Source: Faecalicoccus acidiformans (GTDB lineage: Bacteria > Bacillota_I > Bacilli_A > Erysipelotrichales > Erysipelotrichaceae). Taken from it: a stretch of 64,000 bases of DNA. Below, in pieces: positions 15,454-64,000 of this stretch. Below the pieces are notes generated by a model. It did no database searches and was not told the DNA's origin. It worked only from the letters and a program-made list of their open reading frames with translations. Numbering within the stretch: position 1 is the first letter of the stretch; each line of letters starts with the position of its first letter. The stretch lies in NCBI RefSeq assembly GCF_014202635.1, contig NZ_JACHHD010000001.1, positions 1-64,000 of the forward strand. The letters are read 5' to 3'. A program made the translations under genes and the position numbers.

Positions 15454-15476
15454 TCTCCAAAAAATAGAGGTTCAAT

Positions 15477-20134: not shown

Positions 20135-20151
20135 GTGCAAAAAAAACGCCT

Positions 20152-20858: not shown

Positions 20859-20975
20859 CCAGGTGGATAAATGATGCGATAAGATAATATGGTCATATTA
20901 TGTGAAATGGTGTCATTGGTTGAATTTATAGTGTTTTTGATTTATAGTAAAGCTCACTAAAGGAGTTTTAAAATC

Positions 20976-35236: not shown

Positions 35237-35268
35237 GTTGCAGAAAAATGAGGAAAGGAGGAGAGCAG

Positions 35269-42343: not shown

Positions 42344-45300
42344 ATGGCTAAGATGATAGATCAGAAGCCTACTTTACATGGTGAGGCAAAACTATGGTCA
42401 TGTTTAGAATCATATTTACCAAATGATACGATTGTTTACCACAACCGCGAAGTAAATGGAAGAGAATTTGACTTTTGTTTGTTGATGGAAAACTATGGTG
42501 TCTTGGTTATAGAGGTGAAAGGTTGGCTGAGCGATAAAATCTGTGTCAACGGAATCGATGAGATAGTTGTTGAAGGCTATGACAAGCCTCAGCGTTCACC
42601 TAAAAAGCAGTCAAGAGCTTATCGTTTTGCACTCCTCAACAAGATAGTTGAGAAGCATAATGTGAGTCCTTTGGTATTTGATATGGTCTGCTATCCATTT
42701 ATTTCGGAGGCTGAGTATAAGAGCAAACGATTAGATATCGTTTCCGAAGAAAAATTTACGATTTTTAAAGAAGACTTAGATAATCAGGAACAACTCTTAA
42801 AGAAAATTTTTGATGCATATAATGCTTCAAAGAATATTCCGCATGCAGAATTAACAAGAGAATTAGTGCTTAAACTTCGTCGAGATTGGGAAGTTAATCT
42901 TGAAGAAGATAAACAGCCGATTTATCAGAAGAGTGTATACTCCATACTCTCTACTCACTTAGACTCGATTGATGAAAATGATATTGAGAGCATTATCAAT
43001 GAGTATTTTGCTGGGGTGAAAAGAATTCTCTTTATTAAAGAGTCTGATTCATACAAGAACCTTGTTGCAGCTTTTAACCAGGCCTTTAAAAAGAAAAATA
43101 TAGACCCACAAGGGAACTCGTTAGAGCTTGGATACCATGATGGCTTAAGGAGTAGTGATCATTTTGCAAGAGCTTTTAATCTAGAGCTTTATTATGTCCC
43201 TAAATTAGATGAAATCTGTCTTAAACCAATTTCGATCATTGAAGGAGAGTGTGGTGCTGATGATAAGCAGATGCTTTTAAAGTTGGCTTCAATGACTTCT
43301 TTCAATGCTCAGCAGTATTCTGTTGAACATGCCTCAACCTCAGAAAACGTCCTTGTTGAAGCGGGTGCAGGAACAGGTAAGACTTTTTCGATGGTTTCCA
43401 GGGTTGCTTATCTTTGCAACAAGAAAATTGAGTCGATCTCAAATCTTGAAGAAGAAATTGCGCTAGTCACATTCACCAACGATGCTGCCAACAATATGAA
43501 GGTTCGGCTAAAGCAAATGTTTGTGAACTATTTCATCCTTACTGGAGATCCGCGTTACTTAAAGTTCATAGAAGATACGGATCGGGCACATATTTCCACC
43601 ATACATAGTTTTGCTCTAGATATTATAAGGAAATCATCTTTATACACAGGACTTGGTACTAAGTTCAGAATAGCCTCAAATGAATATCTTCGCGGCAAGA
43701 TTTATGATTTGTATCTCAGTCAATTTCTTGCTGAAATGGAAGAAGAGAATAAGAATTTTGCAAATGAAATTCCGGTTCCAGTATATGACTTAAAGAAAAA
43801 GATAATTGGAATTGCAGATAAACTGCTAAACAAAAGCATCAATTTGAATGAAATTAGGCCTTCTGAGATGGGGGTTCCGGTAGAAAACTCTCTGCCATAT
43901 TTTAATCAGATAATTGAAAAAGTAATTGTTCCTTCAGAAAAAGAGTATATGGATTCCGTTCATCTGAATAATGATATTGACTTGAAGGAGTGCATTATTC
44001 TTCTTAATGAGATCCTGAAAAATCGGGATGGAAAGCTAGAGGATCTGAAGATTCGTTACCTATTCATTGACGAGTTTCAGGATACCGATGACGTTCAGAT
44101 TCGTGTTTTTCAGAAGCTTCAAAAAGCAATGAATTCTGAGTGCAGGCTGTTTGTTGTAGGAGATTTAAAACAAAGTATTTATCGGTTCCGCGGAGCTCGT
44201 TTAAGTGCATTTAAACAGTTACAAGATGATTGTCTATATGATTGGCAAGTGTTTCATTTGAATATTAATTATCGTACGGATGGAAGACTTCTCGAATTAT
44301 ATGATGATGTTTTTCAAGGGATGGGGGCCCAAGACTATCTACCATATTCTTCAGAAGACCAATTAACAAGCAATGTCAATACAGATATTGATGATAACGA
44401 ATTATTTGTGATGATTCCTTGCCATGGAAAAGAGGAAGACGCTTTATTTGATGCGTTTATAGGAATTCTACTGAAGCAAGAGTCTTTACTTAGACAGCAA
44501 CTTAAACAGAAAAAGCTAAGCAGAGCTGAAAGAACGATCGCTGTATTGGTGCGTAGTAACTGGCAGGTTGAGAAACTTGTTGAAGCTGGCCGCAAAAAGG
44601 GCATTAGGATAGATACTCGTTCTGGAGGAGCTCTCTTCCAGCTTGAGTCAACGCAGGATCTTTACAAGTTGGTACTCGCACTTTGCAATAACGATTCTTC
44701 AATTCACTTAGTGAATTTTATAGAGTCAAACTATGTGAATCTATCGTTGGATTATCAGTATTATCGAAGTGCTGAAAGCGAAATAATCAAAACAGATTTA
44801 ACCCGGATTTTAGATGAATTCTTTTCTGTGAGAATGGGCAAATCATGGCAGCAAATTGTTGATGAGGCATATACTCAACCGGTTTTGTATGTGCTTAAGC
44901 AGTTATATGATGCTCTTGAGCCGTGGAAGCACTACAGTAGGAATCCAGATGGGCAAAGATATTACATGGCTAATTATGAATACTTACTAGAACGCATTAT
45001 TAAATACTCACGCATTGACTCACTGGCTTTAAACCAAATAGCAGAGTATTTAAAGATTAATATCCTGACGCGTCAACAACAGCTTGCTAGAGAAATAAGT
45101 GTTGATGATGAGGATATTCAGTTCTTGTGCACTACTATTCATGGTTCGAAAGGCCTTGAGTATGGGACAGTTATTCTGCCTTATACAGATGATGATATAA
45201 GTGATATCAAAAAAGTAAAACTTGATGCTAATTATTCAGAATCAAAGTTGTCCTACACAGTGACATTTGAAAATAAAGTCAGAGAAAGGAATTCTTACTA

Positions 45301-45448
45301 TGATGAGATGCTCGAAGTTAAAGAGCAGATAGCGGAAGAATCAAGAATATTATATGTGGCTCTAACGAGAGCGATAAGAAATTGCGTGTGGATTAATAAT
45401 CTTGATAGCAACACAAGAATCAGTTGGAAGACACTGCTGGAGGGTTGA
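42344..45448 (+). CDS. NERD nuclease-UvrD helicase fusion (AddA-like)
   Basis: A 1034-residue protein. The N-terminal NERD nuclease-related domain (about 8-105) contains HGEAKLW, then REFDFCLL ... VLVIEVKGW with the Asp and E-x-K of a PD-(D/E)xK core. After a linker, a complete UvrD/AddA-type superfamily 1 helicase follows: Walker A AGAGTGKTFS (about 340), YLFIDEFQDTD (about 572), VGDLKQSIYRFRGA, STIHGSKGLEYGTVILP (about 935) and ILYVALTRA. AGGAGGG precedes ATG 42344. It ends 1 bp before the AddB-like gene, so the two proteins probably form a complex that unwinds and cuts DNA. First gene of a seven-gene run. Confidence 0.9.
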   Translation: MAKMIDQKPTLHGEAKLWSCLESYLPNDTIVYHNREVNGREFDFCLLMENYGVLVIEVKGWLSDKICVNGIDEIVVEGYDKPQRSPKKQSRAYRFALLNKIVEKHNVSPLVFDMVCYPFISEAEYKSKRLDIVSEEKFTIFKEDLDNQEQLLKKIFDAYNASKNIPHAELTRELVLKLRRDWEVNLEEDKQPIYQKSVYSILSTHLDSIDENDIESIINEYFAGVKRILFIKESDSYKNLVAAFNQAFKKKNIDPQGNSLELGYHDGLRSSDHFARAFNLELYYVPKLDEICLKPISIIEGECGADDKQMLLKLASMTSFNAQQYSVEHASTSENVLVEAGAGTGKTFSMVSRVAYLCNKKIESISNLEEEIALVTFTNDAANNMKVRLKQMFVNYFILTGDPRYLKFIEDTDRAHISTIHSFALDIIRKSSLYTGLGTKFRIASNEYLRGKIYDLYLSQFLAEMEEENKNFANEIPVPVYDLKKKIIGIADKLLNKSINLNEIRPSEMGVPVENSLPYFNQIIEKVIVPSEKEYMDSVHLNNDIDLKECIILLNEILKNRDGKLEDLKIRYLFIDEFQDTDDVQIRVFQKLQKAMNSECRLFVVGDLKQSIYRFRGARLSAFKQLQDDCLYDWQVFHLNINYRTDGRLLELYDDVFQGMGAQDYLPYSSEDQLTSNVNTDIDDNELFVMIPCHGKEEDALFDAFIGILLKQESLLRQQLKQKKLSRAERTIAVLVRSNWQVEKLVEAGRKKGIRIDTRSGGALFQLESTQDLYKLVLALCNNDSSIHLVNFIESNYVNLSLDYQYYRSAESEIIKTDLTRILDEFFSVRMGKSWQQIVDEAYTQPVLYVLKQLYDALEPWKHYSRNPDGQRYYMANYEYLLERIIKYSRIDSLALNQIAEYLKINILTRQQQLAREISVDDEDIQFLCTTIHGSKGLEYGTVILPYTDDDISDIKKVKLDANYSESKLSYTVTFENKVRERNSYYDEMLEVKEQIAEESRILYVALTRAIRNCVWINNLDSNTRISWKTLLEG

Positions 45449-45449
45449 T

Positions 45450-48113
45450 ATGTCATTAGCCATATATACGTATAAAGATCCATACAGACTGGAATCGGAA
45501 CCATACTGGAATGAAATAAAGACATGTCCATACTTTTGTGTATCTCAAACTCTGGTAAATGGTTTGAAATATGTCTATAAAAGTGACTTCCAGCAGGGAC
45601 GTGTTACAACGGTTCAAAATCTAATTGAAGCGTTGTATGAATATTGGACAAGTACAGCTTGTGCAGTTAAGCAGCATACAGATATAGACAACATTATTAC
45701 GCACAATATATCCACTTTGCTCAACGGTAGCTTACAACAAAACATGGCCAGCGCTTTCCTTTTCAATCGTGAAGAGGTTTTCGAAAGCCTCAGGATTATG
45801 TTTGAGTTGAACATAAACTTGCAGGACGTGGTAGAGGAAAAGCTGACTCCTGAGCAGAAATTTATCGTTGAAATATATAGAATAATTAGCAATTCAGGCG
45901 TAATTGCCGATTTTACTATTGATGAAAAACATAGTATTGAGGAAATAGATAAGTCGATCTCTTCGGCGATGGCAAAAGCGGCAGAATACGCTGGCAATGA
46001 AATTGACTTAAGTATAATTCAAAATGATCGGATTGTAATACATGGGGTACATCAATTCTCTCCCATTATGTTAAGAGCAATTGAAAAGATTGCAGAAAAC
46101 AAAAAAGTTATCCTTTTATTCAACTATCAGCCGCAATACAAAAATGCCTATCAAACATGGATAGACATATACTCAACTTTTGATTGCCCTATAGTTGAAT
46201 TTGACGGAGCAGAATTTCACCCCAACATGGAGTATCCAGCAAGCTTTCAAGGGAATCTGCTGGCAGATAATCTTGGAAAACTTATAAATGGGGATATTGA
46301 CAGTCTGAATTTCGGTAACTCTTTTGAGATCACTGAATTTGATAATACTACTGAGTTTGCAAATTATGTTGCAGATATATTTGCCAGGGCTGAAAAAACA
46401 GATCCTACAAATCCGATGGGAAATATGAGCGAGCAAATATATGCAGCTGATAGTTCGGCAAATAATATATTGAAAATATACTTCCCTGAACAGTTCGGAG
46501 AAAGGCAATTCTTAAACTATCCACTCGGACACTTCTTTATTGCGGTTGCCAACATGTGGGATTCTGCAAAGAACGAACTGGTAATTACAGATATTAATGA
46601 TATTAAAGAATGTTTAGATGCGGGCATTCTGAAAGAAAATCATTTGGGTCAATTGCCATCCATTTTTGAAAGCGTCGCTGCATTGTTCGAAGGCTGTACC
46701 TCGATAGATGAGATGACTGGCAGAATAAGAAGGGTTCGAAAAAACAAAAAGCACCTAACTGATCCTACGAAGAAGGAATATGTAAGCCATATTTCTTACT
46801 ATACCGTAACAAATGATGATCTGGAATTATTGGAATCTGCGCTTCAAGATCTAGACGAACTATCGGCATATTTCTATGAGGATTTTGAAAAACGGCCACA
46901 CAACTTTAAAGAGTTTTATAAGAAGCTGAAACGTTACCTGCAGGATGACGTATTAATTGGTCGAGATTTAGGTGAAGAATTCTCAGACATTATTAGGCGC
47001 GTATTGGCCAGATTAGAAGAAGTCGAAAGTATTGATGCATCAGCTTCCTTTGAGTGCCTAAAGGCGACTATGTCGATTTACCTTGTCCAGGAAACAAAAC
47101 CTGGAAAGAGCGCGAACTGGATAGTCAGAAATTTTGAGCAAATCGATGGCGATATAATTCGAAGTTTAGCTGAGAATAAAAACACTGTATACCACTTTGC
47201 GTGCCTTACAGATGAAGATATTGATTCTGTTAATAGATCTAACTTCCCTTGGCCGTTAGATGGGGATTTCTTTGAGGTCGCTCAAGAACCTGTTGATTGG
47301 AAATACCAGGCATTTGTCAGGTCAAGAAAAGAGTATAAGAACTTTAAACGGTATGCTCTATTATATGGGTTAGAATTTAATCGAGCAAAGTTTAAACTAA
47401 GCTATGTTAAACGTGATGGAGATAAAGAGCGAGAACCATATTATCTTCTAAAAATGTTAGGTGTAAAACGAGTAAAGCATGAAGATAAAAAAACAGGGAA
47501 GTATTTAGAAAGTTTACCTGAAATTAGTGTTAGCTTGAAAAGCCTCGGAAAATTTGATGAATATGATTATTATCGCTTTAAGATCTGTAAATATCGGTTT
47601 TTACTTGAGTCATTAATTGAGAATACGACAGTATATAGAGATGATTTCTTGTTGCTGAAGTATTTGGAAGTTCTACTTGAAAATCAGGTTAAAGAAGAAC
47701 TTCAAGGTGTTCCGATAAGCGAGACGATTCTAATTGAAAAGTTGAATGAAGCTTTTGATGAATTAAAGCGGTATTTCCCATATGTACAGAATGTTAATAG
47801 AATGGATGCCATAAGTAATATTCGAAGCCGAATAATAAATGGCAAACAGAAGAGCTTTCCTATCCTCAAAAATGAGGAGCGGAAGTATATGATGATTAGG
47901 GAACTATTTATACACAAGCAGCTTTCAGACCCAAGAACTTTTAGGAAGAACATTTTAGCAGATAAATTTCCGGATGTTTCAGAAGAAAAACTAAAAGAGG
48001 TTTTCTCGGAGGATTCATTGAAGAAAAATAGATATTCGAAAGAACCAGATCTTTGGTGTCAGTATTGTGCAAACCGCGAATATTGTGCGGCATATTATGC
48101 TGAGACAAATTAA
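45450..48113 (+). CDS. AddB-like iron-sulfur helicase partner, nuclease motif not visible
   Basis: An 887-residue protein. The C-terminus has C870-x2-C873-x5-C879 (WCQYCANREYC) and an upstream C713 (KICKYRFLLE). This is the four-Cys layout of the iron-sulfur domain of AddB and Cas4-type nucleases. Between them I see no clear D...E-x-K nuclease core. The middle part (IHGVHQFSPIMLRAIEKI, about 197) recalls the inactivated helicase fold of AddB, with no Walker A. It follows the NERD-UvrD gene by 1 bp. Likely role: structural DNA-grip partner of that helicase, with the NERD domain supplying nuclease activity (inference). The start at ATG 45450 has GAGGG. Confidence 0.68.
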   Translation: MSLAIYTYKDPYRLESEPYWNEIKTCPYFCVSQTLVNGLKYVYKSDFQQGRVTTVQNLIEALYEYWTSTACAVKQHTDIDNIITHNISTLLNGSLQQNMASAFLFNREEVFESLRIMFELNINLQDVVEEKLTPEQKFIVEIYRIISNSGVIADFTIDEKHSIEEIDKSISSAMAKAAEYAGNEIDLSIIQNDRIVIHGVHQFSPIMLRAIEKIAENKKVILLFNYQPQYKNAYQTWIDIYSTFDCPIVEFDGAEFHPNMEYPASFQGNLLADNLGKLINGDIDSLNFGNSFEITEFDNTTEFANYVADIFARAEKTDPTNPMGNMSEQIYAADSSANNILKIYFPEQFGERQFLNYPLGHFFIAVANMWDSAKNELVITDINDIKECLDAGILKENHLGQLPSIFESVAALFEGCTSIDEMTGRIRRVRKNKKHLTDPTKKEYVSHISYYTVTNDDLELLESALQDLDELSAYFYEDFEKRPHNFKEFYKKLKRYLQDDVLIGRDLGEEFSDIIRRVLARLEEVESIDASASFECLKATMSIYLVQETKPGKSANWIVRNFEQIDGDIIRSLAENKNTVYHFACLTDEDIDSVNRSNFPWPLDGDFFEVAQEPVDWKYQAFVRSRKEYKNFKRYALLYGLEFNRAKFKLSYVKRDGDKEREPYYLLKMLGVKRVKHEDKKTGKYLESLPEISVSLKSLGKFDEYDYYRFKICKYRFLLESLIENTTVYRDDFLLLKYLEVLLENQVKEELQGVPISETILIEKLNEAFDELKRYFPYVQNVNRMDAISNIRSRIINGKQKSFPILKNEERKYMMIRELFIHKQLSDPRTFRKNILADKFPDVSEEKLKEVFSEDSLKKNRYSKEPDLWCQYCANREYCAAYYAETN

Positions 48114-48125
48114 AGAGGGGTAATT

Positions 48126-51100
48126 ATGCTTGGCGAAAAAATGTATGTTAGATGTCCGGCAGATATAGAGAGCGCAACGGACCCTAGAGTCTTTGTGTGT
48201 GGGCAAGTGGTGAGAACAGATGAGTTTAAAAGAACGGTAACGGTGAAAGTCCATGATCCGTTTAACTATCGTATGTTCTTTTCAGACCTTCCCAAAGGAG
48301 TAATAGAATTTCCGGAGGATTCAGTTGTCCGTTGCAGTTTGTTTGTGGGGACTGATGTAGTATATGCGGGCAGAGTCTGTCAGATAACAGCCGAAAAGAA
48401 GGGCGATGACGGATACTATTACTATTATGTGCAGGATATTCAAAGCAAAGAAGTTTTTCGCGTATCAGAGAAGGAAATCATTGCCTCACTGACAAATGGT
48501 AAAGTTGATCCCTCTGTTCAACTTAAGAAGTATGAGCTTCAAAACCCGTGTTGGTTTTTGGGTCATGCGGTTGTTTCAAGAAGTATGAATATTCTTGATA
48601 ATTCCATTTACGGGTTTAAGGAGTTGGCAGGCTCAAAGATTTATTTACTTACGCATCAGATCAACACAATCATGCGATGCCTACAAGAATCTCCTTGCAG
48701 ATACATGCTGGCTGATGAGGTGGGTATGGGTAAGACCATAGAAGCTGTCTCCGTAATGAAGATTTTCATGCAGAGTCGCGCCAATCAAAATGCGCTAATT
48801 ATTGTTCCGGAAACCTTAAAAGAGCAGTGGAAATCAGAGTTGTTATTAAAATTCAATATTCCGTTGGGAAGCGGAAAAAACAATAATAGCATAATTGTTA
48901 AGAGCATCTCTGAATTATCTAACACAGATTGCAAAGCTAGTTGGGATTTTGTGATTGTAGATGAAGTGCATCGCTATCTTCAGATTAAGGATTATTACAG
49001 GTTTCTACACAGTATAAGTTCAAATGCAAAGAACATCTTATTATTAAGCGCAACGCCTGTCCAACAAAGAAAAGAAGAATATCTGGATTTGTTAAGACTG
49101 TTACAGCCAGAAAAATATGACGGTTATAGTATCGATAGATTTGGTGATTTGATTGAAAAGCAGGGGCGGATTATCCAAAAAACAGCTTTGGTTTTAGATG
49201 ACCTAAGTGATTTTGAGGAAGAATACCAAAATGTATTGGCTGATAATAAGGATCCGCATGGTTCAGAGGATTGTGAAGAGTTATTTGATGAAATCCATGA
49301 CGATTTGGAAGATATCTGTGATAGCTTAAATGATCCAAAGTTAGAACAACTACTCGAAGAGATTAAATATGAAGATCCTGATTTAGGGATTTACAAAACT
49401 AAAGTCCTGATTTCTTATATCTGCAGTAATTATCAAATCGAGAATAGCATTATTAGAAACAGGAGAAAAATACTAGAGAATAGTGATAGCGGTGAAAGGC
49501 TTCTTCCAACGCGAGAATTGACGTCTGTTAAATATGAGCTGAATGAAGAAAAAAATACATATGAATCTTATTGTTATCAGTTATTAACAGACTGGCTAAA
49601 CAGAAACGGCCAGCAAGTAGATATAGATACAGTTGTTCGTCCGCTTATGGGAGCTTTCTTTAGCTCGCCATGGGCTTTTAATGCTGTTTTGAAAAGGCTT
49701 GTCAAGAAGACGAAAATAGAAGATTTAAGGATACAAACTAATGCTGAGAATTGGGAGCAGTTTGAAGATGAAATATTAGGCAATATCTCTGATATTTTAG
49801 ATGATCCAGACAAATTTGAAGATTATTATTCGACGCGAATAATGTCAGTGATCAACCTTCTTTATGAAGAACTATACGAGGAAAAAATTGTACTTTTCAC
49901 AAATTATGCAGAGACCTTTAGTGCTTATCGGAATGTTTTAAAGAAGGTTTTTGGCGAAGAAGAATTAAGCTTTTTCGGTGCGGATATGTCCGCTGCAGAA
50001 ATAGAGCTGAATGCTTTTCGATTCCAAAACGAAAAAGCATGTAGAATTATGCTTTGTGATTATACCGGAGGTGAAGGCCGCAACTTCCAATGTGCTGATT
50101 ATATAGTGCATATAGATTTACCCTGGGATGCAAATATTATCGAACAACGAATCGGCCGTTTGGACCGTTTGGAAAGAGATATGTCTCGCCCTGTGGTTAA
50201 TTCCGTTGTCGTACATACTGAAGGAACCTTTGAGGAGGCACTATTTAGCTTTTGGAATGAAGGCCTAAAGATTTTCAACCAGTCATTAAGCGGTATGGAG
50301 ATAATCATGAAAGATATTAATCAGGAGATTATCTCTGCCGTAAAGAACGATTTTAAGTTTGGGCTATTTGATAGAATCCCAACAATAATAAAACTTGCGG
50401 ATGATATGAGAGAAACGGTTCGCAAAGAACAAAACTATGATGCTGCGAGTTTTATATTTCGTCCAATGTACGCAGAGCTTAAACGCTTGACGGACTACTA
50501 TGCGCAAAATGAAAATGAACTTTTTGCTGATACAATGACAAACTGGGCAAGTCTCGCAGGTTTTAGAGGGTTCAGTAATAAAGCCGGAGTATTAACATAT
50601 ACTGCTGCATCATTCTCACCTAAGTCAGCAATAAATTCTCAGCTGATTCCGCCCAGATGGAATGACTATTTAAGTAGTGAGCAAAACAAATTCCTAAACG
50701 GAGTGCAGGAAGCATACAACAAGAGTAAATCCATTAAAAATCAAGATCGATCAATTAAAGGTACTTTTATTCGGAAGGTGGCAATTGAAAATGATTATCT
50801 TCATTTCTTCGCTCCAGGTGATGAGATCTTTGATTGCATAGTTAATAATGCAATGCATTCCTGTAAAGGATGTTCGAGTGCATTTGTAACTCCTGCGGGA
50901 ATAAACTGGAGAGGTTTGATTTTTACATGGTCCTTAATGCCAGACGAATCATATCTTTTAGACAAAGGAGTATCTATTTATGCTCTAAGCCCATATAGAA
51001 GCTATTTGATGTCAGAACAGGTGATTATTCCTATAAGCATTGATAATAAGGGGTCACACAGTGATTCTAGTATCATCCGCGAATATCTACAAATAATCAA

Positions 51101-53976: not shown

Positions 53977-54748
53977 TGATCGGATGGCAACACCTGCAAT
54001 ACCTGAAAGGGTATTTACACTTTGCAAAATTGTCGAAAAGAGGCCGATTTCTAGTTCCAATTTAAAGGAGAGAATGGAGCCGGAATTCCTGCACAATAGT
54101 TCTTCATATTACGCGGATTATAGAAATGCAGCTGAAGAATTAAGACTTATCTCAATTTCTGACAATATGATTTCGCTTGCGGTTAATCCGGAAGTAATAA
54201 AGTCGATTGAAAGCATGCGGAAATATATCAATGGACAGCTTGAGCAATTTAAAAACGGACAGTTTTATCAAGTTACCTCAGCTTATTATAGTTTGGGTAA
54301 TCAAGTCCTTAATGGTGAGAAAAATGTTGCTGCGATGGCGCCACAGATGAGTCAGTTGATAGGAAGGCCAGTAGATGCTATGGCAATGCGCGCCTGGAGG
54401 TTCTGGGTGTCTTTTTTGGGATTTGGCTATCTTCAAGACATGTTTCTAATACCTAATGCAGATGTATTTCTAAAGGATTTAATTGATAATGCGGGCTTTG
54501 AGAAGAAAAAACGTTATTCTTTCGGAGAGTTTATCGAGCGCTTACGTCCTTATTGCAACATTGTGATTGATACGAATCCATCGAATCGAAAGATTAACTA
54601 TGGCATATCCAATGGACTTCGTGCTCTTCATGATTCCGGTTGCATCAAATTAGAGCACATATTGGATCAAGAAGATATATGGAATTTATATCCGTTAAAA
54701 GCTCATGCGATTACAGGAACTGTTACAAACATTACCATTAGTAAATAG
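53969..54748 (+). CDS. Small DpdG-like protein with a probable winged helix
   Basis: About 259 residues. The first 80 residues (FTLCKIVEKRPISSSNLKERM, AEELRLISISDNMISL) have the helix-helix-strand pattern of a winged helix. The rest is helical with no catalytic motif. ATG 53969 follows GAAGGTGG. Placed between a RecQ-like helicase and a giant ATPase, as DpdG is between DpdF and DpdH. A DNA- or mark-reading adaptor would fit, but that is inference only. Confidence 0.6.
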   Translation: MFNDRMATPAIPERVFTLCKIVEKRPISSSNLKERMEPEFLHNSSSYYADYRNAAEELRLISISDNMISLAVNPEVIKSIESMRKYINGQLEQFKNGQFYQVTSAYYSLGNQVLNGEKNVAAMAPQMSQLIGRPVDAMAMRAWRFWVSFLGFGYLQDMFLIPNADVFLKDLIDNAGFEKKKRYSFGEFIERLRPYCNIVIDTNPSNRKINYGISNGLRALHDSGCIKLEHILDQEDIWNLYPLKAHAITGTVTNITISK

Positions 54749-54759
54749 GAGGCACCTTT

Positions 54760-57700
54760 ATGGATATAAATATTGCTAGAGATCGGATTTCATATGTTGT
54801 GAAACCCGACTCGATTACTGCTTCACAAGGTGATTTCCTTGCTACGCATGTCGCTATCAATAGATTGCATCTTCTTAATAAGTTTGACATCCTTCCGTCA
54901 GGTGGGAAAAACTATTCCGAAGAAGAAGTGTTTGATCAATATGTACTTAATCCGAATAATCAGCATCAGTTTATTGCTGTTTATGGCCAGAGCGGTACAG
55001 GAAAGTCTCATTTGATTCGATGGTTTGAAGCAAAGTTCGAACAAGTAAAGCCTGATAATGAAGTTGTTTTGTTTATTCGTAGAAGCGACAATACATTAAA
55101 AGGAACAATTCGACAGCTGTTAGAGAAACCAGAAGTCAAAGGAATTGCAAATAGAGAAATCTATGAGCGGTTAGTTAAGGCATCTGTCTTTGTGGATGAG
55201 AACAAACTCAAAGACATGATTTATCATAATTTCATAATTGAGTTGCACAATGACGATGACAGTCATCCAATTAAGATTACAAATGTCAAACGGAAGAGAT
55301 TAGAAGCGTTCTTGAACAATGAAGTCGTTCATGATCATTTAATGTCAGAGAAAGGTCCGATTGAACGGATGTATTCAAAGATCGCTGAACATACACTTGT
55401 TGACCGTGATACGATTGCTCAATTCCTTCCGGAAGACTTTTATGTTTCTGCAGATTTATTTGAGGATATTCATCGAGCTGGTGCTGATCCTAAAGCTGAA
55501 AAAATGGCAAGAGAACTTATGGCTGACGAAAGTGGTGCAGAGTCTGCTAGTGTACTTGCCTCATATTTGAACCAATTTGTGAATGATGTTATTCAGCGGT
55601 GTGCAGGAATTGAGCCAGGCGATTTTAGGCAAATATTCCAAGATATCAGGAAAGAATTGTATCGCCTTGAGAAGAACTTGACGCTGTTTATAGAAGACGT
55701 TACATCGTTTACAGGTGTTGATGATGCTCTTTTGGATGCGTTAATTGTTGAGCATACAGGAATGAATGCAGCAGATAATCTTTGTCGTATCTCTTCAATC
55801 GTAGGCACAACGAGCAACTATCTGCAGAATAACTTCCGTGATAATCACAAAGATAGAATTACACAGTACGTATATATCCCCAGTGATGTTTTTGACGACA
55901 ACGAATTATTTGAGTTTGTTGGCAGATATGTAAATACAATGTCATTAACAGAAGATGTTGTTAATACGTGGCTAAATAATCATGCTAATCCTGCAGACTA
56001 TCCTGTACATGAAGTGAAACAGGGATCCAAATGGGAATATGTATCAATCGGATTTGGGAAAAAACTGTGTTTGTACCCATTCACAAAGAATAGCATCAAG
56101 TATTTATATAACTATGGGCTGACAAAAGGACATCAAACACCTCGATATATCATTCGAGATATAATTGAACCTGTTGTAAACGACATAATCAATAATTCTG
56201 AAAATTTCCCAAGTGTGAAGTATAACTTGGTAAACGTGAATACCACTTTAAGTTATGGTATTCATAACCAGATAAAGGATGATGCTTTAGCGGATCGTTT
56301 ACTTAGGATTCTTTGCATATGGGGGAATGGGCAACCAGAACAATACACCAAAAAAGATATCACGTATGTTTCTGGTGTCCCAGAATCAATTCTTACAGAA
56401 TTAGGGCTTCCAACTCTCAAATTTAGTGAAGTAAAGGAGCCTGATCCAAATCAAGAAGAAAATAATTCGGGAGACGAGCAGGATAATCCGGACGTCACAA
56501 CGGGTGTATCTACTGTTCCTGTAGCAGTTCAAGAAAGGGTCAGCAAGGCCAATGCTATTTTAACTGAGTGGAGTAATGGAAAAGAAATTGATTACTCCGC
56601 TACAGGAGGTGTTACGGGACTCATAAGAAAAGCTGTTTTGGAGGATATGTGCTCATTCTTATTCTCGACTATTAATTGGCAAGTTGAAGGGATTTCTGAT
56701 GACAATATAAACAAAGTGAAATCTTCCAAAAAACTACTCTGTCTGGAAAGACAAACCAAAGGATCAGGCTTTTATCAAATGCCTGCTTCTTGGGAATCAA
56801 TGAATGTTATAACTGCTTTTATTAGATGGAGAGAATTTGGAAATCAGAGTTGGAATTATCCGGATTCAGATCTCGATGCTTTTTTGGTGACATCGTGGGC
56901 GTCAAAAATTAAAGATAGTGTTGTTAAAGCAGTAAGCGATAGAGTTGAAGAATCAAAAACACCATATATTGAAGCTGCTATTGCTGCAGAGATGTATAGA
57001 CTGATTCTCTGTGGAGAGTTTAGAGAGCATAGCCTAAAAAACTTGTCTACAAAGTATTTGTTTGAATCAACCACAAGTACTAAGACTAACAATTGCCATA
57101 GCAAGGAATGGAATGGACTGGTTTCACTTATTACCAGGAATGGAGCGGATACAAGGAATAAAGAAACAATCAGGCAGTATTTCAACATCACTCAAGGTTC
57201 CGGTTCAACAGTTGTTGTCTTAGATGAGCCAGAATTGTCAAAGATGGTCAGAAGAGTGAAAACTAACAGGCTTGAAGTAGCTGAAGAAACCATGCAGCTA
57301 CAAGATCCTGTAAAGCTTCGTCGTGATGTTTTCAATTATTTAAAGGATATATCTGACCGGATTAAAGATGTTTCAAGATCAGAAGTCGATAAGGCGAGAG
57401 ATGTGATCCAGATAATATATGATCACTTTGATAGCGATGAAATAGAAGAAGACGATATTCTTGAACTTGTTGATACGGCAAAGAGTTTTTATGGAGAAAT
57501 AAACTCAACCCAGATAAACATTGCAGTTGCGTCAACAGATGCAGTAAAAAAAGGTGTCAAGCAAATTGCGAAAGCCATTAATGATGTCGGGCTAATATTG
57601 CCTGAAGATGATGTGCTGAATATCCTGATGACATTCGCAGGGGATCCGATTTCGACAATGCAACCTCTTATTGATCTTCTTAAGACACTAGATGGGGATG

Positions 57701-57840
57701 TCAAGAAGTTGGATCAGCGTATTGCAGTAAGAAAAAGTGCACTTGGTGTTGTTGGCGAAAATTTAGGGACTGATAATCAATATAGTTCAGAATCAGAAAC
57801 TATTGAGTCAGATCTGAGTATAGTTGCCAGTTTGCGGTGA
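54760..57840 (+). CDS. Large P-loop ATPase, DpdH-like
   Basis: A 1026-residue protein with Walker A GQSGTGKSHL (about residues 76-85) and Walker B TLFIEDVTSF (about 307), followed by sensor-like GTTSNYLQNNF. After the ATPase core there are about 600 residues with an acidic linker (about 560-585) and helical repeats. This build recalls DpdH and, more loosely, the large ATPases of BREX-like systems. AGGAGGC precedes ATG. It could be the central switch that couples recognition of unmodified DNA to helicase or nuclease action. No nuclease motif is seen. Confidence 0.72.
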   Translation: MDINIARDRISYVVKPDSITASQGDFLATHVAINRLHLLNKFDILPSGGKNYSEEEVFDQYVLNPNNQHQFIAVYGQSGTGKSHLIRWFEAKFEQVKPDNEVVLFIRRSDNTLKGTIRQLLEKPEVKGIANREIYERLVKASVFVDENKLKDMIYHNFIIELHNDDDSHPIKITNVKRKRLEAFLNNEVVHDHLMSEKGPIERMYSKIAEHTLVDRDTIAQFLPEDFYVSADLFEDIHRAGADPKAEKMARELMADESGAESASVLASYLNQFVNDVIQRCAGIEPGDFRQIFQDIRKELYRLEKNLTLFIEDVTSFTGVDDALLDALIVEHTGMNAADNLCRISSIVGTTSNYLQNNFRDNHKDRITQYVYIPSDVFDDNELFEFVGRYVNTMSLTEDVVNTWLNNHANPADYPVHEVKQGSKWEYVSIGFGKKLCLYPFTKNSIKYLYNYGLTKGHQTPRYIIRDIIEPVVNDIINNSENFPSVKYNLVNVNTTLSYGIHNQIKDDALADRLLRILCIWGNGQPEQYTKKDITYVSGVPESILTELGLPTLKFSEVKEPDPNQEENNSGDEQDNPDVTTGVSTVPVAVQERVSKANAILTEWSNGKEIDYSATGGVTGLIRKAVLEDMCSFLFSTINWQVEGISDDNINKVKSSKKLLCLERQTKGSGFYQMPASWESMNVITAFIRWREFGNQSWNYPDSDLDAFLVTSWASKIKDSVVKAVSDRVEESKTPYIEAAIAAEMYRLILCGEFREHSLKNLSTKYLFESTTSTKTNNCHSKEWNGLVSLITRNGADTRNKETIRQYFNITQGSGSTVVVLDEPELSKMVRRVKTNRLEVAEETMQLQDPVKLRRDVFNYLKDISDRIKDVSRSEVDKARDVIQIIYDHFDSDEIEEDDILELVDTAKSFYGEINSTQINIAVASTDAVKKGVKQIAKAINDVGLILPEDDVLNILMTFAGDPISTMQPLIDLLKTLDGDVKKLDQRIAVRKSALGVVGENLGTDNQYSSESETIESDLSIVASLR

Positions 57841-57848
57841 GGTGAACC

Positions 57849-58499
57849 ATGATAGTTGATTTATTGAATCGAAAGATCAAAGAGATGAAGGAGCTTCGCC
57901 GCTTAGAATCGATAAAAGCGAACAAGGCTCAGCAAGAAGCAACAGATCTAAAATATCAGGCGTTTGTAAAAGAAATGCATCAAGCAATTGATGCCATATA
58001 CTATGCAGATAAAGAGCTTGGCTTTATTGTCAGCACAGGCACTAAAATACAAATAAATGGTATGCTGGCAGCAACGCAAGAAGTGACTAAGTCGGGTTTT
58101 GCAGACAAAGAGCTTTTGGCTTCTGCACAGACAGCTTTAAAAAATGTGCAGAATGCCATAAAGAAAGAGTGGAGTTCACATTTCACGCATATCACTTCTA
58201 CGACAACCAGTACATTAAAAGCTATTAATGCAATCGACACAGAAAAAGTAGGCAAATGTTTATCTAATATAAAATCTGCTGAAATATGGGGAGATGATAA
58301 AGATAGATTAAGTAATTTAAAAGATGCATTAAGTGAAGCAAAGACTTTGATTCAGAGCCTCAATCTAGATGATGGTATCATATCATTCTTAACAAAAATG
58401 AATACAGGACAAGCAACTATCGATGATTTGAATGAAGTAGTACTTGAATGGATAAGACAGGAAGGTTTGGAATCGCGTATTAGACTTAAATTTTCGTAA
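57849..58499 (+). CDS. Helical/coiled-coil protein, last gene of the helicase operon
   Basis: A 216-residue, almost entirely helical, soluble protein. Its N-terminal 40 residues (LNRKIKEMKELRRLESIKAN) are likely coiled coil. No motif recognised. GAGGTG precedes ATG, 8 bp after the ATPase gene. By position it could correspond to DpdI of the Dpd cluster, but I cannot show similarity. It may tether or regulate the large ATPase. Confidence 0.55.
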   Translation: MIVDLLNRKIKEMKELRRLESIKANKAQQEATDLKYQAFVKEMHQAIDAIYYADKELGFIVSTGTKIQINGMLAATQEVTKSGFADKELLASAQTALKNVQNAIKKEWSSHFTHITSTTTSTLKAINAIDTEKVGKCLSNIKSAEIWGDDKDRLSNLKDALSEAKTLIQSLNLDDGIISFLTKMNTGQATIDDLNEVVLEWIRQEGLESRIRLKFS

Positions 58500-58547
58500 T
58501 ATGAGTTGTTAGAGTTAACACCCGCTTCCCGCTACAATAGGATTCGG

Positions 58548-58606
58548 TTGACTTTCAGACAAGAACAAGATATACTTAAGTAGCACATACTTAAGTATAT
58601 CTTGTT
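58548..58606 (+). promoter_or_regulatory. dndB promoter overlapped by a long perfect palindrome
   Basis: TTGACT (58548-58553), exactly 17 bp, then TATACT (58571-58576). The -10 lies inside the left arm of an 18-bp perfect inverted repeat: arms 58564-58581 and 58589-58606 (left arm AACAAGATATACTTAAGT), loop 7 bases. The right arm ends in a T-run, so as RNA it could also end the upstream operon. As DNA it is an ideal operator for a dimeric repressor such as DndB. Confidence 0.75.
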
Positions 58607-58627
58607 TTTCGTTTATGGAGATAGATA

Positions 58628-59698
58628 ATGGACTTTGTATATAACTTCCCAGTAGTGAAGGGATCACAAGCAACAAGAGAATATTACATAGCAATGGTTC
58701 CGCTGAAAATGTTGCCAAGGCTCTTTCCGCCAGAAGAAGAATACGTTTCTCCAGAATATAGAGCCCAACGAAAGATTAATGAGTCAAGAATACCAATTAT
58801 TACAAAGTATATACTTGATAATCGTGACTCCTATGTCTTTTCCGCCCTTGCGTCCTCAATTGACGGTGCTTTTAGATATATTCCATTGTCTGAAGACTCT
58901 AGTATCGGTGTTCTTGAAATTTCAATGGATGCTAAATTTTTGATTAATGATGGACAGCATAGGAAGGCAGCCATTATAGAGGCGTTAAAAGAGGATGCTT
59001 CATTAGGTGACGAAACGATATCAATAGTCTTTTATGCGGATAAAGGTTTAGAGCGTAGTCAACAAATATTTACTGATTTAAACAAGAATGCAGTAAAAAC
59101 CTCCAATTCTATTTCAGAGCTTTATGATTCTAGGGATCAAGTTGCTGTGATTACAAGGAATGTCATAAAAAGAATAGACTTTCTTAATACATACACGGAT
59201 AAAGAAAAAGACATTCTAGGAAAGTTCTCCTCTAGTTTATTTACTCTGAATACTTTTTATTCAGCCAATAAGACAATTTTAGGAAATAGAGCTAACGATA
59301 ATGCAGAAGCATTTCTTTTTGAATTCTGGTCTTCAGTTACCAAGCATATGGTTCCATGGGCTGATTTAGTGAATAAAGAAGTAACAAAGAAGGATTTACG
59401 AGAAAAGTATATTGCTACTCAAGGTATAGTAATACAAGCCCTTGGAAGAGTAGGTGCGTATTTTTATCAACATCAAGATATTAATATACAAAAGTCTTTG
59501 AAAGAGCTGGAAACCATTAATTGGAGCAGAGATGCGAATAATTGGTACATGAGAGCGATCAATCAAAATGGAAGAATTATCTCAAATAAGAGAGCTGCAA
59601 CTTTAATTGGAAATGTGATTAAAAAGGCTATAAACCTTCCGTTAACTACAGATGAGGCTTTCGCAGAGGATCAGCTACAGAAAATGATAAAACTCTAG
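58628..59698 (+). CDS. dndB: DndB, DGQHR-domain phosphorothioation regulator
   Basis: A 356-residue protein with the diagnostic DGQHR motif (about residues 108-112, in LINDGQHRKAAIIEAL) and the following FTDLNKNAVKTSNS segment. DndB is not needed for the sulfur chemistry. In other species it represses the dnd operon and limits how often sites are modified. Here it is the first gene of dndB-C-D-E-A, right behind a palindrome over its own promoter, which fits self-control. GGAG precedes ATG; 11 bp to dndC. Confidence 0.93.
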   Translation: MDFVYNFPVVKGSQATREYYIAMVPLKMLPRLFPPEEEYVSPEYRAQRKINESRIPIITKYILDNRDSYVFSALASSIDGAFRYIPLSEDSSIGVLEISMDAKFLINDGQHRKAAIIEALKEDASLGDETISIVFYADKGLERSQQIFTDLNKNAVKTSNSISELYDSRDQVAVITRNVIKRIDFLNTYTDKEKDILGKFSSSLFTLNTFYSANKTILGNRANDNAEAFLFEFWSSVTKHMVPWADLVNKEVTKKDLREKYIATQGIVIQALGRVGAYFYQHQDINIQKSLKELETINWSRDANNWYMRAINQNGRIISNKRAATLIGNVIKKAINLPLTTDEAFAEDQLQKMIKL

Positions 59699-59709
59699 GA
59701 GATATATAC

Positions 59710-61224
59710 ATGAGTAACATAAATAGCGAAAACATAAACGGACTGCTGAAGACAATTCAAAATCTTTACCTATCTGATAATATTCCTTGGATGATTGGCT
59801 ATTCAGGAGGGAAAGATAGCACAGCAACTGTTCAATTGGTGTGGATGGCTATAGAGGATCTTCCTGCATATCAAAGAACAAAGCCTATTCACATTATGAA
59901 TACTGATACTTTGGTCGAATCCCCAGTAGTTTCTAAATGGGTTGAAAAGTCTTTGGAAGCTATGAAAGAAGCAGCTACAGCAAAGATGTTACCATTTATT
60001 CCGGAGAGATTAATGCCAGATTACAATAATACGTTCTGGGTAAATCTCATCGGTCGTGGTTATCCATTTCCACGGAGAAAGTATCGCTGGTGTACAGATC
60101 GCTTGAAAATACAACCGGTCAATTCATTTATTAAAAGTAAAATCGCCGAGCATGGAGAAATAATCCTGGTATTAGGAACAAGAAAGCAAGAAAGTTCAAG
60201 ACGTGCTCGAACAATGGCAAACCTTGAAAAGAGAAGGGTTAGAGAATTATTAAGTCCAAATCCTACATTGGCGAACGAATTAGTGTTTTCTCCACTTGAA
60301 TCGTGGTCAGATGATGACGTTTGGGTCTTCTTGATGCAGTACAAAAATCCATGGGGCTATTCTAATATGGATTTATTAACTATGTATCGTGGAGCAACAG
60401 CAGATAATGAATGCCCATTAATGGTAGACGACTCTCTTCCTTCATGCGGTAAAAGCAGATTCGGCTGCTGGGTTTGTACAATGGTCGAAAAGGATAAATC
60501 AATGGAGGCAATGATAGCGAACGATGATGAAAAGGAATGGATGACTCCATTGCTTGAATTTCGTAATGAATTTGGAGATGAAAAAGGGGATCGTGAAAGG
60601 CGTAGTTTCAGACGAATGCATGGTGATTTGCAGGGAAATTACGGAAGACTTTTTCACGGGCCATATAAGAAGGAAGTACGTGAACAATGGCTTAGAAGAC
60701 TATTGGAAATACAAAAAAATATCAGACTCTCCGGACCAGAGGAATTCCACAATATTGAGTTGATTCGCAAAGAGGAATTACAGGCAATAAGAAGAATATG
60801 GGTATTTGAAAAGCACGAGTTTGATGACTCTCTTCCATTGATTTATGAAGAAGTATTAGGGATACCCTTTGAGGATCCTAGCTGGATCCATGAAGAAAAC
60901 TTTGGAAGAGAAGAGTGGAATATTCTCAAATCTTTATGCGATGAGAGCTATGAAGATGAAGAGCTGGTTTTTGAGATGATGTACAAAATGATCGATATCG
61001 AAAACCATGCCACAGGGCTTAATCAAAGGAAAGGCATTATAGATTCGATAGAACGTGTCATTGGTCAAACTTTTTATAAGAATGAAGACGACGCCCAGAA
61101 CTACTATTTTGAGAAGATGACCCGAAAGAAAGAAATGGGTGGACGTTATAACGAAAAATTCTTGGACTATATTCCTGCTGACGCTGATGAAAACGATGAA
61201 GATGCTGTAGGTGAATCGGAATGA
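59710..61224 (+). CDS. dndC: DndC, PAPS-reductase-like sulfur transfer enzyme
   Basis: A 504-residue member of the PP-loop/PAPS reductase family. The ATP pyrophosphatase loop is GYSGGKDST (about residues 31-39). Cys residues for a 4Fe-4S cluster are in YRWCTDR and in NECPLM, LPSCGKSRFGCWVCTM. DndC activates DNA phosphate with ATP and receives sulfur from the cysteine desulfurase DndA, acting with DndD and DndE to replace a non-bridging oxygen by sulfur. The acidic tail ends in the dndD overlap (ATGA). Length is normal. Confidence 0.95.
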   Translation: MSNINSENINGLLKTIQNLYLSDNIPWMIGYSGGKDSTATVQLVWMAIEDLPAYQRTKPIHIMNTDTLVESPVVSKWVEKSLEAMKEAATAKMLPFIPERLMPDYNNTFWVNLIGRGYPFPRRKYRWCTDRLKIQPVNSFIKSKIAEHGEIILVLGTRKQESSRRARTMANLEKRRVRELLSPNPTLANELVFSPLESWSDDDVWVFLMQYKNPWGYSNMDLLTMYRGATADNECPLMVDDSLPSCGKSRFGCWVCTMVEKDKSMEAMIANDDEKEWMTPLLEFRNEFGDEKGDRERRSFRRMHGDLQGNYGRLFHGPYKKEVREQWLRRLLEIQKNIRLSGPEEFHNIELIRKEELQAIRRIWVFEKHEFDDSLPLIYEEVLGIPFEDPSWIHEENFGREEWNILKSLCDESYEDEELVFEMMYKMIDIENHATGLNQRKGIIDSIERVIGQTFYKNEDDAQNYYFEKMTRKKEMGGRYNEKFLDYIPADADENDEDAVGESE

Positions 61225-63167
61225 TTATCAAAAGACTAACCATGAACAATTTTGGCGTTTATGAAGGGGAAAACACTTTTGAGTTTTCTTATTCTTTGCC
61301 GGTGGTTTTAATAGGCGGCATGAATGGACGCGGGAAAACGACGTTCCTTGAAGCAATTCTCTTGGCGTTATATGGTGAAAATTCTAAAGCTTACAAGGAA
61401 AGCAAATATAAAACATATGGTCAGTATTTAAGATCGTACGTAAATAAAAATAGTTGGACTCAGCGCTGTTATGTTGAACTGGATTTTATCCTGAATGAAC
61501 GTGATTCCGAAGAATATCTAATAAGAAGAGAATGGAATGCACTATCAAAAAGAACCAGTGAAACCTTAAGTGTTAAGCAGAATGGGAAGATTAATACATT
61601 CTTGACTAAAAACTGGCAGATGTTTGTTGAAAATATTCTTCCGAGTGCATTGTCGAGCTTTTACTTTTTTGATGGTGAGAAAATAGCAGAGCTAGCCGTA
61701 GATGACACTGATTCACAAATGAAGGAGTCCATTCGTGCAATGCTGGGCATCACGGTTTTAGATGTTCTCAAGAACGATTTGCTTCGAAGTGTGAGAAGAA
61801 CAGAAAAAAACATCCAGGGAGACGATGTACCTGCTGAATTGAAAGAATGCAAAGCCGAGCAAGAAATGTTGACTGCGAAACTAACAGAGACAAAAAAAGA
61901 GGTTGAAGAATTAATCGAGTTAATAACCGACCAAATAGATAAAATAGAACTTCTTCATCAAGAATATGCGGTCAAAGGTGGAAATGCTCTTGAACAGCGA
62001 CAATCTCTTATTCAAAAAAGAGCGGAGTTAACTGCGGAACTAGAACAAAATAATGGTACATTAATTGAACTTGCATCTGGTGAGCTTCCTTTGTTATTGG
62101 TCGAAAACCTTATTCGAGATATTAAATTGACAGCGGAAGACGAGCATGACGATTTGATTATGCAGCAAGCCTTTGGCCAGCTTGAGACTCTTTTATGTGA
62201 GTATAATAAGTTACACACTGAAGATGTTTCTGCAAATCAGAAGTTCGTTGATTTTGTAAAGGAACATACTTTTGAAAGTCAAACCACTCCAGTTTATAAA
62301 CTGTCTGACCATGCGTTGTTCCAAGCAAACTCTTTGGCAGAAGATCTACTATCTCTAAAGAAGAAACAAACCATTGATGTGTTAGAAAGGAAACACATTT
62401 TAAAGCATCAGCTGGACGAAGTAGATAGTTATCTTTCACTGGATATTAATGAGAAAGAACTTAATGCAAAATTAGCTGAGATTAAAAAACAAGAGAAAGT
62501 TCTTGTAGAAATGCAGGTCAAAAAGACATCGCTTGATCAAAAGAGAGCTGAGCTTGAATCAAAATTAGCAATTAAGACATCTGAATACAATCGCATAGTT
62601 GAAAGATATTTGGCGGCGGTAGAGTTGACAGACGATGCTAAAAGACAATTAAAGTATTCAAGTATTGCACTTCAAATTATTGATAAATTCTCTGTTGAGC
62701 TTCAGAAAAGAAAAACCGGAGCTCTTGGAGAAACAATTACAGATTGCTATAAAAAGCTGGCAAATAAGAAAAATCTTATCAGCCAAATCAAAGTGGATCC
62801 TCAATCGCTTAGCCTAAGTTACATAGATAAACAGGGAAATCTCGTGGCAAAAGAGTCGTTATCGGCTGGAGAGAAGCAATTAATGGTTATCGCAATCTTG
62901 TGGGCATTGGCTATCTGTTCCGCAAAAAAACTTCCGGTGATCATTGATACACCATTGTCACGATTAGACTCGATGCACAGAAAGTCATTAGTCACAACAT
63001 ATTTTCCTAAGGCAAGTGATCAGACGATAATTCTCTCCACAGATTCTGAAATCGATAGATATTATTATGGCTTGATGAAAGATTATGTGGGTGATGAATT
63101 TACACTTGAGTACAATGAAGAAACTCAGAGTACGAAAATTTTAAAGGGGTATTTTCAAGGGAAATGA
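61221..63167 (+). CDS. dndD: DndD, SMC/Rad50-like ATPase
   Basis: A 648-residue ABC/SMC-type ATPase. Walker A is GGMNGRGKTTFLEA (about residues 31-44), a long central coiled coil spans about 195-500, the signature is SLSAGEKQLM (about 545), and Walker B is LPVIIDTPLSRLD. DndD is thought to open or nick DNA so that DndC can modify the backbone. Its start overlaps dndC by 4 bp and its end overlaps dndE by 4 bp. Length and motifs are typical. Confidence 0.95.
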   Translation: MIIKRLTMNNFGVYEGENTFEFSYSLPVVLIGGMNGRGKTTFLEAILLALYGENSKAYKESKYKTYGQYLRSYVNKNSWTQRCYVELDFILNERDSEEYLIRREWNALSKRTSETLSVKQNGKINTFLTKNWQMFVENILPSALSSFYFFDGEKIAELAVDDTDSQMKESIRAMLGITVLDVLKNDLLRSVRRTEKNIQGDDVPAELKECKAEQEMLTAKLTETKKEVEELIELITDQIDKIELLHQEYAVKGGNALEQRQSLIQKRAELTAELEQNNGTLIELASGELPLLLVENLIRDIKLTAEDEHDDLIMQQAFGQLETLLCEYNKLHTEDVSANQKFVDFVKEHTFESQTTPVYKLSDHALFQANSLAEDLLSLKKKQTIDVLERKHILKHQLDEVDSYLSLDINEKELNAKLAEIKKQEKVLVEMQVKKTSLDQKRAELESKLAIKTSEYNRIVERYLAAVELTDDAKRQLKYSSIALQIIDKFSVELQKRKTGALGETITDCYKKLANKKNLISQIKVDPQSLSLSYIDKQGNLVAKESLSAGEKQLMVIAILWALAICSAKKLPVIIDTPLSRLDSMHRKSLVTTYFPKASDQTIILSTDSEIDRYYYGLMKDYVGDEFTLEYNEETQSTKILKGYFQGK

Positions 63168-63550
63168 TTATTAAACAAGTTCGCCTTTCGCAACAGGCAA
63201 AAGATCAACTTGCCAGACTAAAAGGAAAGACTGGCATTAAAAACTGGAATATTTTATGCAGATGGGCTTTGACATATTCTCTCGCAGAAAAGACGGTACC
63301 CACGGATATTCCTATTGTTAATGATAGCAATTTGGAAATGTCCTGGTTCACTTTTGGTGGAGACTATTACGAAATCTATGAGGCATTGATTAAGTCGTGG
63401 TGCATAAATATGGGATTGCCAACAGATGATGATACTGTATCAAAGTATTTTCGCCTGAATTTGGAAAGAGGTATCTCACATTTGTGCGGGACAGGCTTTA
63501 TTAAAAACATTGAGGACTTAATCAATCTGGCTGTGAGGGAAAAGGTATGA
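63164..63550 (+). CDS. dndE: DndE, DNA-binding modification subunit
   Basis: A 128-residue small basic-helical protein with the DndE pattern: VRLSQQAKDQLARLKGKTGI..WNILCRWAL near the N-terminus and RLNLERGISHLCG at the C-terminus. DndE binds nicked duplex DNA in known systems and is needed for phosphorothioation. Coupled by 4-bp overlaps to dndD upstream and dndA downstream. Confidence 0.93.
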   Translation: MIIKQVRLSQQAKDQLARLKGKTGIKNWNILCRWALTYSLAEKTVPTDIPIVNDSNLEMSWFTFGGDYYEIYEALIKSWCINMGLPTDDDTVSKYFRLNLERGISHLCGTGFIKNIEDLINLAVREKV

Positions 63551-64000
63551 GTATTTATCTGGATTACAATGCATCTTCTCCAATCGATACACGAGTATTA
63601 GATACAATGATGGATATATACAAGAATCACATTGGAAATGCAGATAGCCGTACACATAATCATGGTGATCAAGCCAGAGTAATAGTTGAAAATGCCAGGA
63701 AAGCAGTTGCTGGTTTATTAGGCATTTCATCCTCTGAAGTGTTTTTTACAAGTGGAGCCACAGAGAGTAATAATATTGCGATTCAAGGCTTAGAAGAATA
63801 TGCGCTGAAAAGCGGAAAGAATCACATTATCACTACCTCTATAGAACATAAGGCAATTCTCGAAACTGTAAAATCAATGGTAAGAAGGGGATTTGAAATC
63901 GATATTGTTGATCCGGAGCCTACTGGTAGAGTAAGTATGGAGAAGATTATAGAGAGGGTTCGGGACAATACGCTTCTTGTAAGCGTAATGCATGTTAACA
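63547..64000 (+). CDS. dndA: DndA/IscS-type cysteine desulfurase (cut by window edge)
   Basis: The first 151 residues of a PLP-dependent class V aminotransferase fold. The N-terminal LDYNASSPID, the PLP-phosphate loop FTSGATESNN and the IEHKAIL motif with the His that stacks on PLP are all present. The catalytic Lys and active-site Cys lie beyond the window. It takes sulfur from L-cysteine and passes it to DndC. It starts inside the dndE stop (ATGA), so it is the fifth gene of the dnd operon, which makes the set self-sufficient. Confidence 0.93.
   Translation, partial: MSIYLDYNASSPIDTRVLDTMMDIYKNHIGNADSRTHNHGDQARVIVENARKAVAGLLGISSSEVFFTSGATESNNIAIQGLEEYALKSGKNHIITTSIEHKAILETVKSMVRRGFEIDIVDPEPTGRVSMEKIIERVRDNTLLVSVMHVN

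Follow-up and report, generated by a model that had tools for sequence, protein, structure and literature searches.

The window analyzed here, the first 64 kb of a 197-kb contig from the Faecalicoccus acidiformans genome (1.77 Mb, 99.7% complete), contains a dndB-C-D-E-A operon for phosphorothioate (PT) modification of DNA, complete on the contig, and, adjoining it upstream, seven genes that include diverged homologues of the effector core of Dpd, the 7-deazaguanine system. We consider it likely that the locus is a PT-based restriction, or anti-phage, system, in which the seven-gene effector set attacks DNA that does not carry the mark. An initial annotation of the window, made from its letters alone, had proposed that a Dpd-type effector set was re-paired with sulfur marking. 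That proposal is largely supported, except that the set also contains a small protein and an AddAB-like pair bearing a NERD nuclease domain, in place of DpdJ, DpdK, and DpdD. The genes that the annotation named, with dndB-C-D-E-A following a packed run of helicase and ATPase genes, are all present where it put them, closely spaced on the + strand, and the seven proteins checked have no internal stops.

The effector module and the dnd operon

The Dnd modification gene set is complete in one operon. DndB (58628-59698; TIGR03233, 422 bits), DndC (59710-61224; TIGR03183, 621 bits), and DndE (63164-63550; TIGR03184, 110 bits) score above the respective cut-offs of 328, 290, and 72 bits, and DndC keeps its SGGKD motif. 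DndD (61221-63167) reaches 935 bits with the PADLOC DndD model versus 511 for the best PbeC model. The dndA gene (63547-64000) is cut by the window edge; the full gene spans 63547-64698 on the contig, and its complete 383-amino-acid product scores 411 bits with PADLOC DndA. A profile search for DndH found no match anywhere in the window's own genome, which agrees with the initial annotation in placing no DndFGH here; the same model matches 5 of 50 relatives' genomes. A DndFGH set just outside the window was considered and rejected, the genome having no DndH and the 14 kb downstream being taken up by a type II CBASS operon, AbiE genes, and a recombinase. Among the neighboring genes scanned there was no match to SspE, SspB, PglZ, or BrxL, and no genome-wide search for SspE was made.

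Five of the effector genes form a Dpd-type core. The SNF2/RapA-type helicase (48126-51494) matches DpdE (NF041062, 341 bits; PADLOC DpdE, 244 bits) and has the motifs GMGKT and DEVH; the RecQ-type helicase (51487-53976) matches DpdF (NF041063, 473 bits; PADLOC DpdF, 364 bits) and has GGGKS and DEAH; and the large P-loop ATPase (54760-57840) matches DpdH (NF041065, 315 bits), with E < 1e-90 for all three NCBIfam models. The helicase and ATPase identities offered by the initial annotation are thereby borne out. The scores are strong and yet lie below the equivalog cut-offs (500, 550, and 450 bits, respectively), so that by the NCBIfam standard these are diverged homologues and not equivalogs. 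The DpdG homologue (53969-54748) is divergent: its single-sequence profile match is weak (14 bits), and comparison of its family with the Nostoc DpdG family by hhalign gives a probability of 99.6% (E 2e-23). The last gene (57849-58499) encodes a 216-amino-acid protein that has no family match and follows dpdH in most of the dnd-class and Dpd-class loci described below; its family aligns with that of the gene after dpdH on a Nostoc plasmid (hhalign 97.3%, E 2e-11), and its position would make it DpdI. Profile comparison thus completes a core of DpdE-F-G-H and a small protein, in agreement with the likeness to DpdE-F-G-H that had been noticed from order, sizes, and motifs.

The Walker A and ED motifs of DpdH are invariant across 50 homologues. 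A Foldseek search with the whole AlphaFold2 (AF2) model of DpdH returned no match under E 0.001; when the N-terminal half was re-aligned, it matched Cdc6 (1fnn, Z 14.9) and BrxC (9zll, Z 11.8). The alignment used for the fold was built without two rows from plasmid records. The N-terminal core of DpdH is thus predicted to be an AAA+ domain of the Orc/Cdc6 type, reminiscent of the ATPases in BREX and Ssp systems.

The two remaining genes open the module. The first (42344-45448) encodes an N-terminal NERD domain (PF08378) fused to a UvrD/AddA-like superfamily 1 helicase (PF00580/PF13361), with AddA as its closest solved relative (3u44_A, E 3e-39); the NERD residues D45, E59, and K61 and the Walker A motif are invariant in 10 homologues. 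The product of the second (45450-48113) has no Pfam, NCBIfam, PADLOC, or PDB sequence match and is read as AddB-like because its predicted fold matches AddB: with the AF2 model (mean pLDDT 83.5), the best Foldseek match is 3u44_B (E 1.8e-11), and VIA-align against 4cej_B gives Z 16.5 with a root mean square deviation of 6.0 over 660 residues. Its C729, C886, C889, and C895 are invariant in 34 homologues and form the pattern C...CxxCxxxxxC, presumably the iron-sulfur staple of AddB. No Pfam match to a RecB-type nuclease domain was found in either protein. We read the pair, from motifs and models, as a putative AddAB-like motor of which the NERD domain is the only recognizable nuclease. It shares with AddAB an AddA-like helicase adjoining an AddB-like fold with the iron-sulfur cysteine pattern; it differs in that the putative nuclease is a NERD domain at the N-terminus and no RecB-type domain was recognized at the C-terminus. 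The starts at 42344, 45450, and 53969 were set from conserved methionine positions and are probable; the frame of the AddB-like gene is open from 45402, ahead of the chosen start.

We infer that PT protects self DNA and that the parts work as one complex, in the following order. DndA and DndCDE would mark self DNA with sulfur, with DndB regulating the operon; DpdH, DpdG, and the small protein would form a sensing and licensing complex that tests DNA for the mark; the SNF2-type DpdE and RecQ-type DpdF would translocate along DNA and unwind it; and NERD-UvrD, together with the AddB-like protein, would degrade the unmarked target, the nuclease site being in the NERD domain.

Linkage of the module to dnd genes

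We scanned 84,980 species genomes, using four aligned DpdH proteins as the query, and obtained 169 relatives, 80 of which were kept: 48 loci classed as dnd, 23 as Dpd, and nine unlabelled or too short. For 46 of the 48 dnd-class loci, the contig that carries the module also carries dnd genes next to it, in three arrangements: downstream on the same strand (28 loci), downstream on the opposite strand (six, among them L036, which was counted by way of its overlapping contig L114), and upstream as dndC-D-E-A (eight); the remaining dnd-adjacent loci are L025, L065, L073, and L074. In L054 and L061, dndC sits on other contigs. The recurrence of a DpdH-bearing module beside dnd in 46 loci excludes chance. 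The carriers are gut and environmental bacteria. In Ruminococcaceae, the dndC-D-E-A genes lie upstream of the module, beyond the first 10-kb flank, and the idea that these modules are without dnd was rejected once the genes had been located there. Within the window's own order, a DpdH homologue occurs in four of 316 genomes, and dnd genes adjoin it in all four, the fourth having dndB on its 3.6-kb contig; strong DndC matches occur in five of the 316, three of them with the module.

The two classes also differ in genome-wide content. A strong DndC is found in 45 of 50 module genomes versus six of 25 Dpd-class genomes (in none of these within the locus). A DpdA query matched in one of 45 module genomes, and there a fragment, versus five of five Dpd-class genomes, and it gave no match in the window's own genome. 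Fisher p values calculated for the association take no account of relatedness and are descriptive. An AddB-like gene accompanies the module in 45 of the 48 dnd-class loci and is absent from all 23 Dpd-class loci, whereas DpdJ is present in none of the 48 and in all 23; because DpdJ is one of the marks by which loci were classed as Dpd, the latter count holds partly by construction and the former does not. DpdK is likewise found in none of the 48, and PADLOC scans of the window's genes found no DpdJ, DpdK, or DpdD. The initial annotation had suggested such a survey, of whether homologues of the helicase run occur with dnd and without dpdA. The findings that it held would tell against its proposal did not appear: Dpd profiles match, close relatives of the helicase run are rarely apart from dnd, and DndH was not found in the genome.

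Three dnd-class loci have no AddB-like gene. One, L025, is a 6-kb fragment. In the other two, from Catonella morbi (L045:1-3422) and an alphaproteobacterial metagenome-assembled genome (MAG; L087:3-3390), the position of UvrD/AddB is taken by a different NERD-helicase protein along with an MZB-like protein; this NERD-helicase protein keeps an intact D...ExK motif, and its presence there suggests that NERD is the working nuclease.

Evolutionary history and rival explanations

In the full DpdH tree a single change between the dnd and dpd labels suffices when unlabelled rows are ignored, and in a pruned tree a single branch (SH-aLRT 96) separates the dnd rows from all others; both trees were built under a simpler model and carry a long-branch warning, and the switch could run either way. 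We favor, with somewhat less assurance than the restriction reading itself, the view that the DpdE-F-G-H-small core is a modification-agnostic surveillance platform that moved in one ancestral switch from the 7-deazaguanine to the PT mark, or the reverse, with DpdJ, DpdK, and DpdD being exchanged for the AddAB-like NERD pair.

Within the dnd class, the DndC and DpdH trees conflict, and the linkage spans at least two diverged DndC types. Over 7.7 kb (approximately 13790-21500), the dnd DNA of loci L037 and L042 is 91.5% identical, whereas most of the DNA of their effector modules cannot be aligned, apart from patches at 65-77%; the identity begins at an inverted repeat before dndB. Near-identical dnd operons behind diverged modules, together with the conflict between the trees, suggest that module and operon have been exchanged as units and have remained paired. 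In the window, a near-perfect inverted repeat (58563-58607) lies between the small gene and dndB and overlaps a promoter-like site, TTGACT-17-TATACT. A dyad with ATATACTTAAGTA arms precedes dndB in 24 loci, counting the window, and is absent from six downstream-arranged loci that do not have dndB. DndB is a regulator of the dnd operon, and the repeat is probably its operator as well as the module boundary.

Several observations weigh against the restriction reading. The module appears to be transcribed separately from the dnd operon, with a sharp recombination boundary between the two, and independent neighbors would be expected to show the same. DndFGH co-occurs with the module in five of 50 genomes and in G019. 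The AddB-like protein has no conserved D/E/K nuclease set between its cysteines. In addition, the 80 loci derive from two short DpdH peptides, so that the sample is biased toward window-like DpdH; related loci in it are not independent, and many are metagenome-assembled.

Some of this evidence would fit a DpdE-H/AddAB-like set that stands alone, works independently of any mark, and lies beside dnd by hitchhiking or linked transfer within a defence island: a type II CBASS operon and AbiE genes directly follow dndA in the same genome, module and dnd operon recombine separately, dndB has its own promoter or operator, and some carriers have DndFGH. We regard this as unlikely, since few informative loci of the clade are without PT genes (L046, and the Selenomonas loci L059 and L083 on long, unsure branches), the linkage holds across all three arrangements and with at least two diverged types of DndC, and in the sister class the Dpd homologues are paired with another self-mark. 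Comparably unlikely in our judgment is that host PT, instead of protecting sites, arms or stimulates the effector complex, although PT-sensing SspE provides a precedent (PMC8092258) and, according to PMC11931770, published PT systems modify approximately 10-15% of available sites, which is awkward for simple protection. Profile scans recognized a PT-binding domain in no module protein, which speaks against such activation. So does the homologous Dpd core, which acts in the restriction of unmodified DNA.

A third alternative is that the module adds a second layer to DndFGH, reading the same mark without replacing it. In G019 a complete DndF-G-H set is inserted between the small gene and dndB (L013:1085-9659), and DndH is found in the genomes of L069, L071, L073, L074, and L076; but 40 of the 45 module genomes that bear dndC have no DndH, nor has the window's own genome, and we consider this explanation very improbable. 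The "hybrid defence system" of the initial annotation thus stands as regards adjacency and homology, whereas a strict replacement of DndFGH does not, given the genomes with both; that the two halves operate as one working system is how we would interpret their linkage.

If the core is such a platform, the locus would represent a new class of PT-based restriction system, distributed in Bacillota, with sporadic occurrences in Actinomycetota and Alphaproteobacteria. Many dnd operons are without DndFGH, and their restriction partner, if any, is treated as an open question in PMC10853773 and PMC8569181; the system would account for some of these operons, for which it supplies a conserved candidate effector set with a recognizable nuclease. 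In addition, it divides a modification-dependent defence into a component that writes the mark and one that responds to it: an equivalent core is found next to two chemically unrelated marks, so that comparison of the dnd and Dpd branches could reveal the mark-reading proteins, and the poorly understood Dpd restriction genes gain a second, independent context. We found no description of dnd combined with Dpd-type effectors in the open-license literature searched, and its novelty is provisional. A reappraisal of Dnd (PMC10853773) lists other nucleases near dnd, its main text mentioning none of Dpd, RecQ, and UvrD, and the combination is not described in the searched passages of a BREX survey (PMC12839542), a preprint on YprA helicases (PMC12458937), a GATOR-GC study of dpd islands (PMC11888242), a study of Dnd origin (PMC8569181), or two papers on PT in the gut (including PMC11931770).

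Related systems and surrounding genes

The closest known system is Dpd, in which DpdE, DpdF, DpdG, and DpdH and then the small protein occur in the order seen here. It differs in its mark, which is on the base there and predicted to be on the sulfur-bearing backbone here, and in DpdA, DpdJ, DpdK, and DpdD, which dnd-class loci lack, having NERD-UvrD and AddB-like proteins instead; the window's proteins, moreover, score under the equivalog cut-offs. Dnd systems with DndFGH share the complete dndB-C-D-E-A set, but the window's genome is without DndH and the effector set here is another, larger one. BREX type 4 and Ssp share the PT mark predicted here and an Orc/Cdc6-type ATPase, the DpdH model resembling BrxC; their PT enzymes are of the SspD/BrxP type, unlike the Dnd type found here, and none of PglZ, BrxL, SspB, and SspE is among the genes scanned. 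In BRIGADE, as described in PMC12458937, Dpd components are likewise mixed into another defence system, as Dpd/ARMADA hybrids of halophilic archaea, but that system is base-modifying, uses YprA helicases, is confined to haloarchaea, and has no Dnd. The initial annotation had also recommended comparison with PbeABCD. These systems, grouped with CxC-ABC ATPase systems, share linkage to Dnd in archaea and bacteria, and DndD is homologous to PbeC; PbeA, however, is a fusion of an HKD nuclease to a superfamily 2 helicase. PbeABCD was rejected, as no PLD/HKD nuclease is encoded by the window's genes and DndD scores as DndD; DpdF matches PbeA in the helicase part only (34 bits).

An 80-amino-acid Cro/CI-type helix-turn-helix protein (41974-42216, + strand; PF13443 HTH_26, 60 bits) is encoded directly 5' of the first effector gene and is a possible regulator of the module, its membership being uncertain. 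A RepA_N replication initiator (35248-35985), approximately 7 kb upstream of the effector genes, suggests that the defence island is embedded in an element that is mobile or derived from a plasmid. No match came from scanning the window for Rfam families and tRNAs or from a search for a tRNA-type end pattern. Directly downstream of dndA lie a type II CBASS operon (cyclase, E1-E2, JAB, and 2TM effector), AbiEi/AbiEii, and a serine recombinase (L003:6700-10733, 14198-18769), company that identifies the locus as a defence island. An HNH endonuclease gene follows dndA in 18 of the 48 dnd-class loci (e.g., L013:15865-17025) and is not present in the window.

Among the other loci, the two from Selenomonas (L059:13858-21919 and L083:13835-21677) have the DpdE-F-G-H core followed by a superfamily 2 helicase, with an MZB protein and a UvrD helicase in addition in L059; neither DndC nor DpdA was found in their genomes. 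On the Paenibacillus plasmid pART37 (L017:28704-32275), a Dpd-class locus contains duplicated DpdJ, DpdK, and DpdD-like genes, and a UvrD helicase and a weakly matching AddB-like gene lie further along; this is perhaps an intermediate form. A 3.2-kb contig in a Gastranaerophilales MAG (L034) matches the window's DpdH at 100%, representing either a recent transfer or a misplaced contig. No viral contig matched a single-sequence DpdH query. The unverified "Bacteriophage sp." record MT835580 (L022) is probably not a phage; it contains a Dpd locus, and Sphingomonas parapaucimobilis has an identical DpdH. In genome G218, dndB appears broken across frames (L015:1626-2208), while dndC-D-E-A is intact.

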